In this document: positions 1 through 43,659 of the stretch, piece after piece
Numbering within the stretch: the stretch's first letter is position 1
Layout: each line of letters begins with the position of its first letter
NCBI RefSeq assembly: GCF_022848905.1
Contig: NZ_JAFIRA010000011.1
Location: forward strand, 31,846 to 77,693
Direction of reading: 5' to 3'
Length of the DNA: 45,848 nt
DNA from: Thermostichus vulcanus str. 'Rupite'
Lineage (GTDB): Bacteria; Cyanobacteriota; Cyanobacteriia; Thermostichales; Thermostichaceae
Position numbers and translations under genes: made by a program
The notes under the pieces: model-generated
What the model was told of the DNA's origin: nothing
The model's input: only the letters and a program-made list of their open reading frames with translations
Databases searched by the model: none

Positions 1-178
1 GCGAAGGTGCTCCGCACCGCTGTCGCGAAGGTGCTCCGCACCGCTGTCGCGAAGGTGCTCCGCACCGCTGTCGCGAAGGTGCTCCGCACCGCTGTCGCGA
101 AGGTGCTCCGCACCGCTGTCGCGAAGGTGCTCCGCACCGCTGTCGCGAAGGGGCTCCGCACCGCTGTCGCGAAGGGGA
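1..178. repeat. Tandem array of a 24-bp hairpin repeat
   Basis: Seven complete 24-bp units run head to tail from the window edge to 168, and the first 10 bases of an eighth follow. Units 1-6 are identical; unit 7 has one T-to-G change. Each unit holds a five-pair stem, GGTGC/GCACC, around a TCC loop (GGA on the other strand), followed by CGCTGTCGCGAA. The unit is a multiple of three and has an open frame on the + strand (eight-residue period AKVLRTAV), but nothing suggests a real protein. There are no unique spacers, so this is not a CRISPR array. The array may continue to the left of the window. The same hairpin occurs as single copies elsewhere in the window. Confidence 0.95.
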
Positions 179-287
179 TTAACCCCGTGCTAAGTGACTA
201 GCGTGCCCTTGGCGCAAAGGGCTGTAAGGTGGCAATTGAACCGGGATCCCTTGCCCTCAACGACTCAGGAAACTGGGATCCCTGGTC

Positions 288-293
288 TATAAT
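288..293 (+). promoter_or_regulatory. Possible -10 box for the fused ABC ATPase gene
   Basis: A perfect TATAAT lies 33 bases upstream of the ATG at 327. No good -35 hexamer is found 16-18 bp before it, so this is a weak prediction. The rest of 179-326 holds two GGGATCCC palindromes and nothing else recognisable. Confidence 0.3.
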
Positions 294-326: not shown

Positions 327-2138
327 ATGACCAATACCGCTGCTGCTGCTGCCGAGGCTGCTCTGCTGACTGTCGAAGGGTTACGGGTTCTCTTGCCCAG
401 CCGTACAGCTCGGGCCAGCGGGACGGAGTCCTGGGGATCCCCAGTGGTGGATGGACTGTCGTTTCAACTGCAAGCTGGCCAAACCCTAGGCCTTGTTGGG
501 GAGTCCGGCTCCGGCAAAACCATGACCGCCCTCACCCTCATGGGTCTTTTGCCCCCTCAAGCTCAGGTGGAAGGCCACGTGTACTTTCAAGGCCCGCAGG
601 GTCGTGTAGATTGGCTGGCCTTGGATCCCCGGCAACGGCGGCGCTATCGCGGATCCCAAATCGCCATGATCTTCCAGGAGCCGAGTACCGCCCTCAACCC
701 CCTCTATACCTGTGGCCAACAGTTGCGAGAAACCCTGCAGGCCAACACGTCCCTAACCCCAGGGGAAATTCGCTCCCGAGCTGTGCAGCTTTTTGAAGAG
801 GTGCAACTTTCCCCACAGCTGCTGGAGCGCTACCCGCATCAACTCTCGGGCGGGCAAATTCAGCGAGTGGCCATCGCCTGTGCCATCGCCTCCAACCCCA
901 AATTGCTGATTGCCGATGAGCCGACCACGGCTCTGGATGTAACCGTCCAGGCGGAGATCTTGCGCCTGCTGGCCAACCTGCAACAGCAACGACAGATGGC
1001 CATTTTGTTCATCACCCACGACCTGAGTTTGGTGGCAGAGCTGGCGGATCAGGTGATAGTGATGTATCGCGGCCAGGCGGTGGAACAAGCCAGCGTCGAG
1101 CAGGTGTTTCGGGATCCCCGGCATCCCTATACCCGCGGTTTGTTGGCCTGTCGCCCGGTGTTGGAGCGGCGGTTGCGGCGGCTGCCAACTTTGCAGGATT
1201 TTCAGGTGGAGGAGACGCAAGAGCAACCGGGATCCCTGTCGATTGAGCACCAGTGGCGGCAGGTGGAGATTACAGCGGCAGAAGAGGAAGAGCGGCTGCA
1301 GCGATTACAGAGTCAGCAGCCTCTCCTGCAAGTGCGCGAGCTAAGAACCCACTATGCCGTGCGGCAAGGACTGTTTCGTCGTCAGGTGGGGGAACTGCGG
1401 GCGGTGGATGGGATCAGCTTTGATCTGTATCCGGGAGAAACCCTGGGCTTGGTGGGGGAATCCGGCTGCGGCAAAACCACGCTGGGTCGGACTTTGTTGC
1501 GCCTGATCCGAGCCAGTTCCGGCCAGGTCCTCTACGACGGCGATGAGTGGCTCCGCCTGCCACCCCAACGCTTACGCCGGTTACGCCGGGAGATCCAACT
1601 GATTTTTCAAGATCCAGTAGCCTCTCTGGATCCGCGCATGACGGTAGGGGAAAGCGTTATGGAGCCGATGTGGCTCCATCGAATTGGGGCCAATTCTGCA
1701 GAGCGGCGGAAACGGGCCGAACAGTTGTTTCAGCGGGTAGGGTTGGATCCCGAATCCCTCAATCGCATGCCCCATCAGTTCTCCGGTGGACAACGGCAGC
1801 GTATTTGTATTGCTCGGGCCTTGGCCTCTGAGCCGCGCTTGATCATCTGTGATGAGGCTGTCTCCTCCCTAGATGTCTCGGTACAGGCGCAGGTGTTGAA
1901 TTTGCTCAAAGATCTGCAGGAGGAACTGGGGCTCACTTATCTGTTCATTTCCCACGATCTGAGCGTGGTCAAGTTCATGAGCGACCGCATCATGGTGATG
2001 AATCGGGGCCGGATCGAGGAAATCGGCCCGGCCAGCCAGATCTACCAGTATCCGCAGCAGGACTATACCCGCCGCCTTATCGCCGCCATTCCCAAAGGGG
2101 ATCCGAAAAGACGAACCCACTTACCCCAAACCGGATGA
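327..2138 (+). CDS. Fused double ATP-binding protein of a peptide/nickel-type ABC importer
   Basis: The 603-residue protein joins two complete ABC ATPase domains, equivalent to DppD and DppF in one chain. Domain 1 (about 15-260) has Walker A GESGSGKT at 58-65, signature LSGGQ and Walker B LLIADEP. Domain 2 (about 330-590) has Walker A GESGCGKT near 377, signature FSGGQ and Walker B LIICDEA, with Ala in place of the usual Pro. Both keep the H-loop (ITHD, ISHD). It should energise uptake of a peptide-like solute from the cytoplasmic face of the membrane. No permease gene adjoins it; the nearest permeases are at 8676-10690, where a separate DppD/DppF pair also exists. Residues 30-35 are encoded by a small hairpin-repeat sequence placed before the first Walker A. 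The exact substrate is unknown. Confidence 0.9.
   Translation: MTNTAAAAAEAALLTVEGLRVLLPSRTARASGTESWGSPVVDGLSFQLQAGQTLGLVGESGSGKTMTALTLMGLLPPQAQVEGHVYFQGPQGRVDWLALDPRQRRRYRGSQIAMIFQEPSTALNPLYTCGQQLRETLQANTSLTPGEIRSRAVQLFEEVQLSPQLLERYPHQLSGGQIQRVAIACAIASNPKLLIADEPTTALDVTVQAEILRLLANLQQQRQMAILFITHDLSLVAELADQVIVMYRGQAVEQASVEQVFRDPRHPYTRGLLACRPVLERRLRRLPTLQDFQVEETQEQPGSLSIEHQWRQVEITAAEEEERLQRLQSQQPLLQVRELRTHYAVRQGLFRRQVGELRAVDGISFDLYPGETLGLVGESGCGKTTLGRTLLRLIRASSGQVLYDGDEWLRLPPQRLRRLRREIQLIFQDPVASLDPRMTVGESVMEPMWLHRIGANSAERRKRAEQLFQRVGLDPESLNRMPHQFSGGQRQRICIARALASEPRLIICDEAVSSLDVSVQAQVLNLLKDLQEELGLTYLFISHDLSVVKFMSDRIMVMNRGRIEEIGPASQIYQYPQQDYTRRLIAAIPKGDPKRRTHLPQTG
417..431 (+). repeat. Single hairpin-repeat unit inside the ABC ATPase gene
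   Basis: AGCGGGACGGAGTCC matches bases 21232-21246 exactly and is the GGAC-GGA-GTCC variant of the hairpin unit in the left-edge array. It lies in the variable segment before the first Walker A and keeps the reading frame. Confidence 0.6.
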
Positions 2139-13926: not shown

Positions 13927-14287
13927 TTAGCGGTGCGTAGCACCTTTATTTAACCAGAGTCCTCTTCTACACCCTTTGAAGTCGTAGGCCAAATCCTGCG
14001 GATCGTTCTTGAGGATAAAGTCGGGGCGGGATCCCTTGGCCCCGTGACAAACCAGACAGGTGGCTTCAACATTGATGCGGCGATAGGAGTGAGTTCCTGG
14101 CTGCCCATTGAGCAGCTCCTGAGCCCAAAATCCGATCAAATCGGCATTTTGTTGAAAGCGAGCAAGGACGATTTTGGTGTGAAGGTTATCGGGCGGTAGA
14201 GGCAGCCACAAGCCGCGTCCCCAATATCCAACACACCAGCAACAACAAGACCCAGCGGCTAATTGTGGCAACTCTAGTAACTGTCAT
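13927..14287 (-). pseudogene. Decayed Tll0287-like (DUF3365) c-type haem protein gene
   Basis: The remnant has an intact Sec signal peptide starting at ATG 14287 (MTVTRVATISRW, then LLLLVCWILG, ending VAAS). After a frameshift near 14200, another frame encodes a match to the C-terminal part of the DUF3365 haem domain: FQQNADLIGFWAQE, then YRRINVEATCLVCHG with the CxxCH haem-attachment motif, then DLAYDFK. About 60-100 residues that normally lie between signal and FQ are missing. The end is also broken: the expected GDLRG block is garbled and a small hairpin repeat sits at the very end of the frame (13932-13944). The gene is almost certainly non-functional. Confidence 0.75.
13930..13946 (+). 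repeat. Single hairpin-repeat unit with GTA loop in the haem-protein pseudogene
   Basis: AGCGGTGCGTAGCACCTT matches the array unit except that the loop is GTA instead of GGA. The stem GGTGC/GCACC (13932-13944) is intact. Confidence 0.6.
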
Positions 14288-42672: not shown

Positions 42673-43659
42673 TCAGATCTGGCAACTGAGCAAATTTTCT
42701 CGACGGGTCTGGATCAGTTGGGCAGTGATGCTGATGGCAATTTCGGCGGGGGTTTCGGCGTGGATTTCCAGGCCAATCGGGGCGTAGAGGGGGGCAAAGG
42801 CATTCTCAGGGATCCCTTCCTGGGCCAGGGTTTGCAGCACCGTTTTCACCCGTTTGCGGCTGCCGATCATCCCCAAGTAGCGGTAGGACAGCTTGGCTTG
42901 ATGAAGGGTACGCAAAATTTGACAATCGAGGCTATAGCCGCGGGTGAGGAGAGCAATGTAAAGATCCGCAAGACAACTGAGGTCTGGGATCAGGTCTGAG
43001 AAGGGCTGTGGGCACAGCCGCTGGGCGGTAGGGAAACGCTCTGGAGTGAGGTATTCTGGGCGGTCATCTTGAATCCAAATGCGAAACCCAGCCCAATGGG
43101 CGATTTGGGCCAACGGGATCCCACAGTGGCCGGCTCCAACGATCAACAGGGTGGGAGAAGGGAGGAGGGGATCCACAAAGGACTCGCAGGTCGCGTCAGC
43201 GGTGCGGAGCACTTTGAGCTGAGGGCTGGAGAGGGACTGAAACTCCGAACTGAGATAGGGAAATCGCTGGGGATCCAGGGGAGTAATCAATTGCGTGCCT
43301 CCCCCTGTGGCCAAGGCTTGCTGAATTTGGGTGACCCGTGCTTGGGCCAAGGATCCCTGCCACCGTTGCAGCCAAAGATTCATTCGCCCACCACACACCC
43401 CCAGGGGAGAGTCCCTCAGGTCGATGGAGACTTCCACCCCGGCTGGATCGGTTGCCTGCAAAAGGATCTGCGCCTCAGCAATCACCTTGGCTTCTCCGGC
43501 CCCGCCCCCAATAGTGCCCAGCAGACGGCCATCGGATCCCAGCGCCAGTTTTGCCCCCACCTGCCGTGGCACAGATCCCTGAGTGCGGATCACAGTAGCC
43601 ACCACTACCGGGCCGAGGGAGATCATCTCCGCCAGTTCTCGGTAAAATGCCTCTTCCAC
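42673..43659 (-). CDS. XdhC/CoxF family protein
   Basis: The 328-residue protein has an N-terminal XdhC_CoxI domain (VVVATVIRTQGSVPRQVGAK; IGGGAGEAKVI; SPLGVCGGRM) and a C-terminal Rossmann domain (LLIVGAGHCGIPLAQIA; YLGMIGSRKR). XdhC proteins insert or sulfurate molybdenum cofactor for xanthine dehydrogenase-type enzymes at the cytoplasm. No such enzyme is encoded nearby. The start is GTG 43659, which restores the conserved beginning, with no good Shine-Dalgarno. A hairpin-repeat unit (43191-43213) lies in frame in the linker between the domains. Confidence 0.88.
   Translation of the reverse strand: MEEAFYRELAEMISLGPVVVATVIRTQGSVPRQVGAKLALGSDGRLLGTIGGGAGEAKVIAEAQILLQATDPAGVEVSIDLRDSPLGVCGGRMNLWLQRWQGSLAQARVTQIQQALATGGGTQLITPLDPQRFPYLSSEFQSLSSPQLKVLRTADATCESFVDPLLPSPTLLIVGAGHCGIPLAQIAHWAGFRIWIQDDRPEYLTPERFPTAQRLCPQPFSDLIPDLSCLADLYIALLTRGYSLDCQILRTLHQAKLSYRYLGMIGSRKRVKTVLQTLAQEGIPENAFAPLYAPIGLEIHAETPAEIAISITAQLIQTRRENLLSCQI
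43191..43213 (-). repeat. Single hairpin-repeat unit inside the XdhC gene
   Basis: On the minus strand the sequence contains GTGCTCCGCACCGCTGACGC, which matches the left-edge array unit except one base. The stem GTGC/GCAC with TCC loop is intact. It encodes LRTAD in the linker between the two domains and keeps the frame. Confidence 0.65.

Follow-up and report, generated by a model that had tools for sequence, protein, structure and literature searches.

A 24-bp double-hairpin unit of Thermostichus that occurs singly and in head-to-tail arrays, in genes and in a MITE-like repeat

The class of mobile DNA nearest in size to the repeat described here is that of the small dispersed repeats (SDR) of Nostoc, which Elhai et al. 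reportedly described in 2008 as being 21-27 nt long and mobile, as judged by the comparison of filled and empty sites; both are cyanobacterial, and the likeness is one of size and mobility. The Rickettsia palindromic elements are palindromic mobile DNA of 100-150 bp that lies in frame within proteins. They share with the present unit the property of being in-frame palindromic inserts, at a size of 24 bp or 8 codons in our case, and we know of no head-to-tail arrays of them. In BrickBuilt of Porphyromonas gingivalis, a MITE encloses a minisatellite of 23 nt, which is repeated from 1 to about 23 times depending on the strain (PMC4596501). REPINs, which are inverted REP pairs, also form ordered tandem clusters, with flanking sequence and long spacers, and a second mechanism has been proposed for these (PMC3116915). 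In Synechococcus JA-3-3Ab and JA-2-3B'a(2-13), the dominant octamer is GGGATCCC (PMC4390886).

The array reported here lies at the left edge of the window, by which we mean the whole 45,848-nt stretch of DNA that was analysed (C11:31846-77693) from the 3.72 Mb, 120-contig draft genome of Thermostichus vulcanus str. 'Rupite' (G000, the source genome; G001-G005 are congeners). It resembles BrickBuilt in its head-to-tail repeats of near-equal period, its position inside a MITE and the presence of assembly gaps at the sites. In BrickBuilt, however, arrays occur in many MITE copies, with no report of a unit that moves alone (PMC4596501), whereas one expanded MITE copy is seen here and the 24-bp unit is a separately inserting element, which is found inside genes too. 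The likeness to REP and REPIN sequences lies in small palindromic mobile repeats with tandem clusters (PMC3116915), but the 24-bp units are single, abut head to tail with no spacer between them and also lie in frame within genes. A literature search with the unit's sequence strings returned no relevant paper. Each component therefore has a precedent, but in the literature available we know of no description of their combination, a 24-bp unit that both moves alone and tiles head to tail in phase, inside genes as well as inside a MITE.

The array at the window's left edge and its host repeat

Analysis with TRF identified a tandem array with a period of 24, a 99% match between copies and the consensus GCGAAGGTGCTCCGCACCGCTGTC, in agreement with an earlier sequence-only reading of the window that had counted at least seven near-perfect 24-bp copies at this edge. 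The pattern scan divides window positions 1-144 into six perfect units, the six that had been called identical, followed by a seventh unit that differs by a single T>G; scanning of shuffled sequence gave 0 pattern matches, which is also the chance expectation. In element phase, the array unit is G + GTGCTCCGCACCGCTGTCGCG + AA.

1..175, + strand: tandem array, 7.3 copies of 24 bp (TRF, pattern scan)
145..168, + strand: final full unit, with GGGGCTCC replacing GGTGCTCC (pattern scan, MITE alignment)

The array had been taken to start at window base 1, and this does not hold. Window base 1 is the first base 3' of a 10-N assembly gap, and reading to the left of that gap reveals six further identical units (C11:31691-31831) with unique flank before them, giving 13 assembled units in total with the gap between. 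As both sides of the array abut the N gap, and might even overlap, the true copy number at C11 is uncertain. The number could also be an artefact of assembly, if the scaffolder had duplicated or truncated a shorter array round the gap, and the long arrays on C11, C48 and C2 are indeed each interrupted by a 10-N gap that has 5-7 units on either side. Yet the right side at C11 alone is seven units long and runs into unique flank, leaving only the count uncertain, and in a closed congener, arrays free of gaps reach 14 units; we consider such an artefact very improbable.

The array sits within one copy of a MITE-like repeat of ~240 bp, other copies of which normally carry one unit. BLAST recovered this dispersed repeat in 54 pieces at about 40 places in the genome. 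Aligned copies are delimited by TACAGCCCTTT and AAAGGGCTGTA, and have an outer TA, 11-bp inverted ends and no gene inside; the inverted end TACAGCCCTTT has far more exact genome-wide matches (92) than the approximately 2 that are expected from an estimate based on base counts. Thus the repeat is short, non-coding and multi-copy, with 11-bp terminal inverted repeats and no transposase gene, as in a MITE, and some of its copies are truncated. TA is present at both ends, and left synteny at the C11 locus differs in relatives. The left end, TATAGCCCTTT, is outside the window at C11:31544, and the sequence to the right of the array contains the following features.

176..226, + strand: right-hand rest of the host MITE-like repeat, ending AAAGGGCTGTA (related copies have these ends)
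216..226, - strand: right terminal inverted repeat TACAGCCCTTT with outer TA (92 exact copies genome-wide)
283..292, + strand: promoter-like block GTCTATAATC (conserved upstream of the orthologues in five congeners)
327..2138, + strand: oligopeptide-type ABC transporter ATPase gene (Pfam ABC_tran, oligo_HPY)

The right end of the MITE (window 226) is about 57 bp upstream of the promoter-like block, and the orthologues of the ABC ATPase gene in congeners have neither the MITE nor the array upstream. Copies of the MITE with a single unit read ...GGGCTAGA-GTGCTCCGCACCGCTGTCGCG-AAGGGGATTAACCCC..., and among the MITE copies found the 24-bp unit is expanded in the C11 copy only. The G in GGGGCTCC, with which the last C11 unit begins, matches the GGGG found 3' of the unit in single-unit copies, the trace that would be expected if the first duplication had taken place at a GG junction; that this junction match is GG only weighs against the account favored below.

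The stretch occupied by the array is open, as the sequence-only reading had observed, though the restriction to one frame that it implied does not stand, as all forward and reverse frames are open. We find it extremely unlikely that the C11 array is the coding repeat of a real protein. Its period of 8 codons and freedom from stops, together with the like units found in frame within tnpB and within transporter genes at other loci, would be in keeping with such a repeat; set against these are the six open frames, the location in an intergenic MITE, the sole Pfam match, which falls below its cut-off, and the orthologues without an array. On these grounds a conserved protein repeat at C11, the finding that the sequence-only reading had named as refuting its view, was rejected, and the C11 array codes for nothing evident.

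Other copies of the host repeat differ in further ways. The copy L048 (C39) contains a different short tandem, of the hairpin unit ATGACCCTCCGGGTCGTGCGGAGCACC, with a 27-bp period; a tandem of the same period at L018, of the unit ATCTTGCTACGCAAGGTGCGGAGCACC, lies within a tnpB-like gene. Towards the left end, some copies of the host repeat hold a further ~60 bp of other small hairpins that is absent from other copies (L031, compared with L044 and L047), and this block is a nested insertion of small repeats. A search for the parent transposon in this fragmented assembly found IS630-type (DDE_3) loci without these ends, and 20 stretches at unpaired MITE ends that contained no transposase-bearing pair. 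Two pairs of inverted ends ~1.1 kb apart (L103 and L108) were rejected as the parent element, as they enclose ordinary host genes.

The 24-bp unit as a dispersed double hairpin

Units of the family conform to the pattern G[NN]C-TCC-G[NN]C-CGC-TNNC-GCG, which has between 11 and 254 matches per genome in the six genomes. Matches to GNNCTCCGNNCCGCTNNCGCG number 100 in G000, 61 in G001, 11 in G002, 36 in G003, 198 in G004 and 254 in G005, and the reversed-pattern control for the same sequence gave 0 matches in G000-G005. With two or fewer mismatches allowed, the core GTGCTCCGCACCGCTGNCGCG is present at 85 places in G000, many of which are outside the MITE. Beyond the array, the window contains two members of the family.

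13932-13944: looser unit variant
43192..43212, - strand: single unit, core GTGCTCCGCACCGCTGACGCG, in frame in an XdhC-family gene (24 bp more than at the homologous G003 site)

In the predicted fold, the unit forms two small hairpins. The first has a stem of 4 bp and the loop TCC, which reads GGA on the opposite strand; in the second, a 3-bp stem of CGC and GCG encloses the loop TNNC, and this second loop explains the free NN positions. The stem types seen are GTGC/GCAC, GGAC/GTCC, GGCC/GGCC, GCGC/GCGC, GAGC/GCTC and GGGC/GCCC. At the two variable pairs, 121 of 122 cells in G001 are paired, compared to a mean of 72.6 and a maximum of 92 in 10,000 shuffles; these cells are not independent, because some copies are inside IS elements, but the double changes between types are still real. 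Folding energy is ordinary for the composition (z -0.8 to -1.7), and the support for the predicted hairpins is covariation, not folding energy.

For five single units, comparison with homologous empty sites shows a net insertion of exactly 24 bp (C6 and C13 with G003, C7 with a paralogue, window 43.2 kb with G003 and the tnpB site with G003). This observation substantiates the earlier proposal that single copies are inserted; the sites L113 and L122 gave no clean alignment to empty homologues. A 1-3 bp target-site duplication beside single units was looked for by eye at the G000 sites, with inconsistent results. The unit is thus of SDR type in its 24-bp length, its dispersal and its precise presence or absence, and some copies ride inside IS elements. 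At about 20 places in G001, single units are at a fixed ~144-177 bp from a ~68-bp IS end, and part of the unit count is therefore IS hitch-hiking. The occurrence of arrays inside a non-coding MITE argues for the 24-bp length being intrinsic to the unit; as most of the clean empty sites lie in genes, the length may instead be partly the outcome of selection for reading frame.

Recurrence, copy-number series and growth of arrays

A search for other arrays of the 24-bp unit showed that the array is not confined to the C11 locus. There are five in G000: one on C2 (6+5 units round an N gap), that on C11, two on C36 (one of 3 units plus a partial unit, and a separate pair) and one on C48 (6+6 round an N gap). 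Arrays are also present in G003, G004 and G005, and one array is present in a named Synechococcus MAG as well. Tandem arrays in this thermophilic hot-spring genus span 2 to 14 or more units, and their linkers vary between arrays and are mostly constant within one array. In a census of neighbouring units that allowed 0-30 bases between cores, 48 of 53 loci from four genomes have the 3-base core gap that gives the 24-bp period, an exactness of spacing that has a vanishing probability under a uniform-gap expectation; the loci were counted by hand, and copies of one IS family among them are not independent. In view of the single 24-bp inserts and the arrays outside MITEs, a mere minisatellite internal to the MITE is too narrow a description of the array. 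A phage origin was also rejected, as the tandem pattern is absent from viral contigs, where 84 single-core matches were found, which is approximately the chance estimate for so large a collection.

Several of these arrays have features of their own. At L111 (C48:4817-5118), where the 6+6 array surrounds an N gap, ~280 bp of tnpB is absent in comparison with the C9 paralogue. Arrays are found at contig ends in G004 (C12, C22, C25, C33, C74 and C81), which indicates that short-read assemblies of the genus are broken by arrays. At two separate sites in G005 (L217; G005:C1:1581959 and 1586138), the same two units are joined by an unusual linker, ATT, as would result from the copying of a whole dimer at once. 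The orthologous arrays L216 (G005) and L224 (G004) have two units each, and the two loop bases that distinguish one genome from the other (AC versus AA) are the same in both units, a hint of concerted change of neighbouring units.

Comparison of homologous sites reveals alleles with different numbers of units. In a transporter-ATPase gene, G004 has 0 units, with GGTCA directly joined to TCAGC, G001 has one, AAGGACTCCGTCCCGCTGGCGCGA, at this junction, and there are two in G005; the proteins with 0, 1 and 2 units read LADRLVL-MTNGP, LADRLVL-IAPAGRSP-LTNGP and LADRLVL-IAPAGRSP-FAPAGRSP-LTNGP, respectively. Other sites differ by 0 versus 2 units, or by 0 versus 3 different units (72 bp; compared with an empty site in G004). 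Eight copies of a single TnpB transposon in G005, a closed genome, have flanks that differ by ~1-3% and hold 2, 2, 2, 3, 3, 4, 6 and 14 units; these copies (G005:C1:2805424-2805747 plus seven others, L200-L212) form a natural copy-number series. The array of this transposon is in frame and contributes RGSGPEAF per unit, directly after the ENNAD motif. Since the 24-bp unit spans 8 codons, as a rule without a stop, each unit gained within a gene lengthens the protein by 8 amino acids, and the in-frame growth in tnpB and in the transporter gene agrees with the expectation that expansion within genes is tolerated.

The composition of the arrays bears on how they grow. Nine of 12 sampled arrays in G005 are homogeneous, where two random units would match with a probability of 0.12 (the sample is a partial list from the forward strand of one genome). 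Since arrays are mostly homogeneous, local duplication dominates. Unlike units also lie side by side in exact phase, with GTGC beside GGCC, GGAC beside GTGC and three different units in a row, and insertion beside an existing unit therefore probably contributes too; slippage alone cannot explain all arrays, given those that are heterogeneous and in phase. The second mode of array growth proposed by the sequence-only reading consequently holds in the form of local amplification, and has to be widened to arrays that join unlike units in phase. Separate G005 loci within 3 kb of each other share a unit type in 9 of 27 cases, compared to 2.9 expected (P about 0.001, from the same partial list).

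An alternative is serial insertion, in which each unit would enter at the 3' junction of the one before it (after GCGA) and with the same orientation, the target would be regenerated, and machinery rather than slippage would build the arrays. The period always equals the insert length, as this would require, and right junctions are often GCGA followed by TC; the sharing of unit types above chance by separate loci within 3 kb, and the unlike units in exact phase, which include a GTGC-stem unit beside a GGCC-stem unit and three in a row compared to an empty site in G004, fit it as well. However, random re-insertion would not give homogeneous arrays, yet most arrays, including that on C11, are homogeneous, and arrays of identical units differ in number between near-identical copies of a transposon. 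On balance, serial insertion is an unlikely explanation. A related proposal is that the 24-bp double hairpin is self-targeting, with the insertion machinery adding units head to tail as the target is regenerated, so that arrays would be a direct product of mobility and not a by-product of slippage; we regard this as tentative and rather doubtful.

Taken together, we favor, with a probability of about 0.68, an account in which a mobile 24-bp double hairpin became part of a MITE, where it was duplicated and then multiplied by slippage or unequal exchange. The units insert singly, with an exact net length and no evident target duplication, as seen at several sites, and one of them is an internal part of the MITE-like repeat. 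In the C11 copy, this unit would have been doubled in head-to-tail order and then multiplied to a minimum of 7, and probably 13 or more, by replication slippage or by unequal exchange between identical units. This route is suggested for C11 by the identity of the units and their match to the unit of their own MITE, and also by the homogeneous arrays elsewhere and the variation in copy number among transposon copies in a relative. The first doubling at other loci may also have occurred through a second, different unit inserting in phase at the end of the first.

In-phase tiling is an unusual growth route for very small mobile DNA, and the unit bears on the wider question of the movement of sequences shorter than 30 bp. 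The genus offers closed genomes in which one 24-bp unit has alleles of 0, 1, 2 and n copies, together with covarying stems and a series of 2-14 units in copies of one transposon, and the allele and copy-number series make the choice between a mobilising enzyme and replication slippage testable. In-frame growth by 8 amino acids per unit, in TnpB after ENNAD and in the transporter ATPase, is a route for repeat peptides inside proteins.
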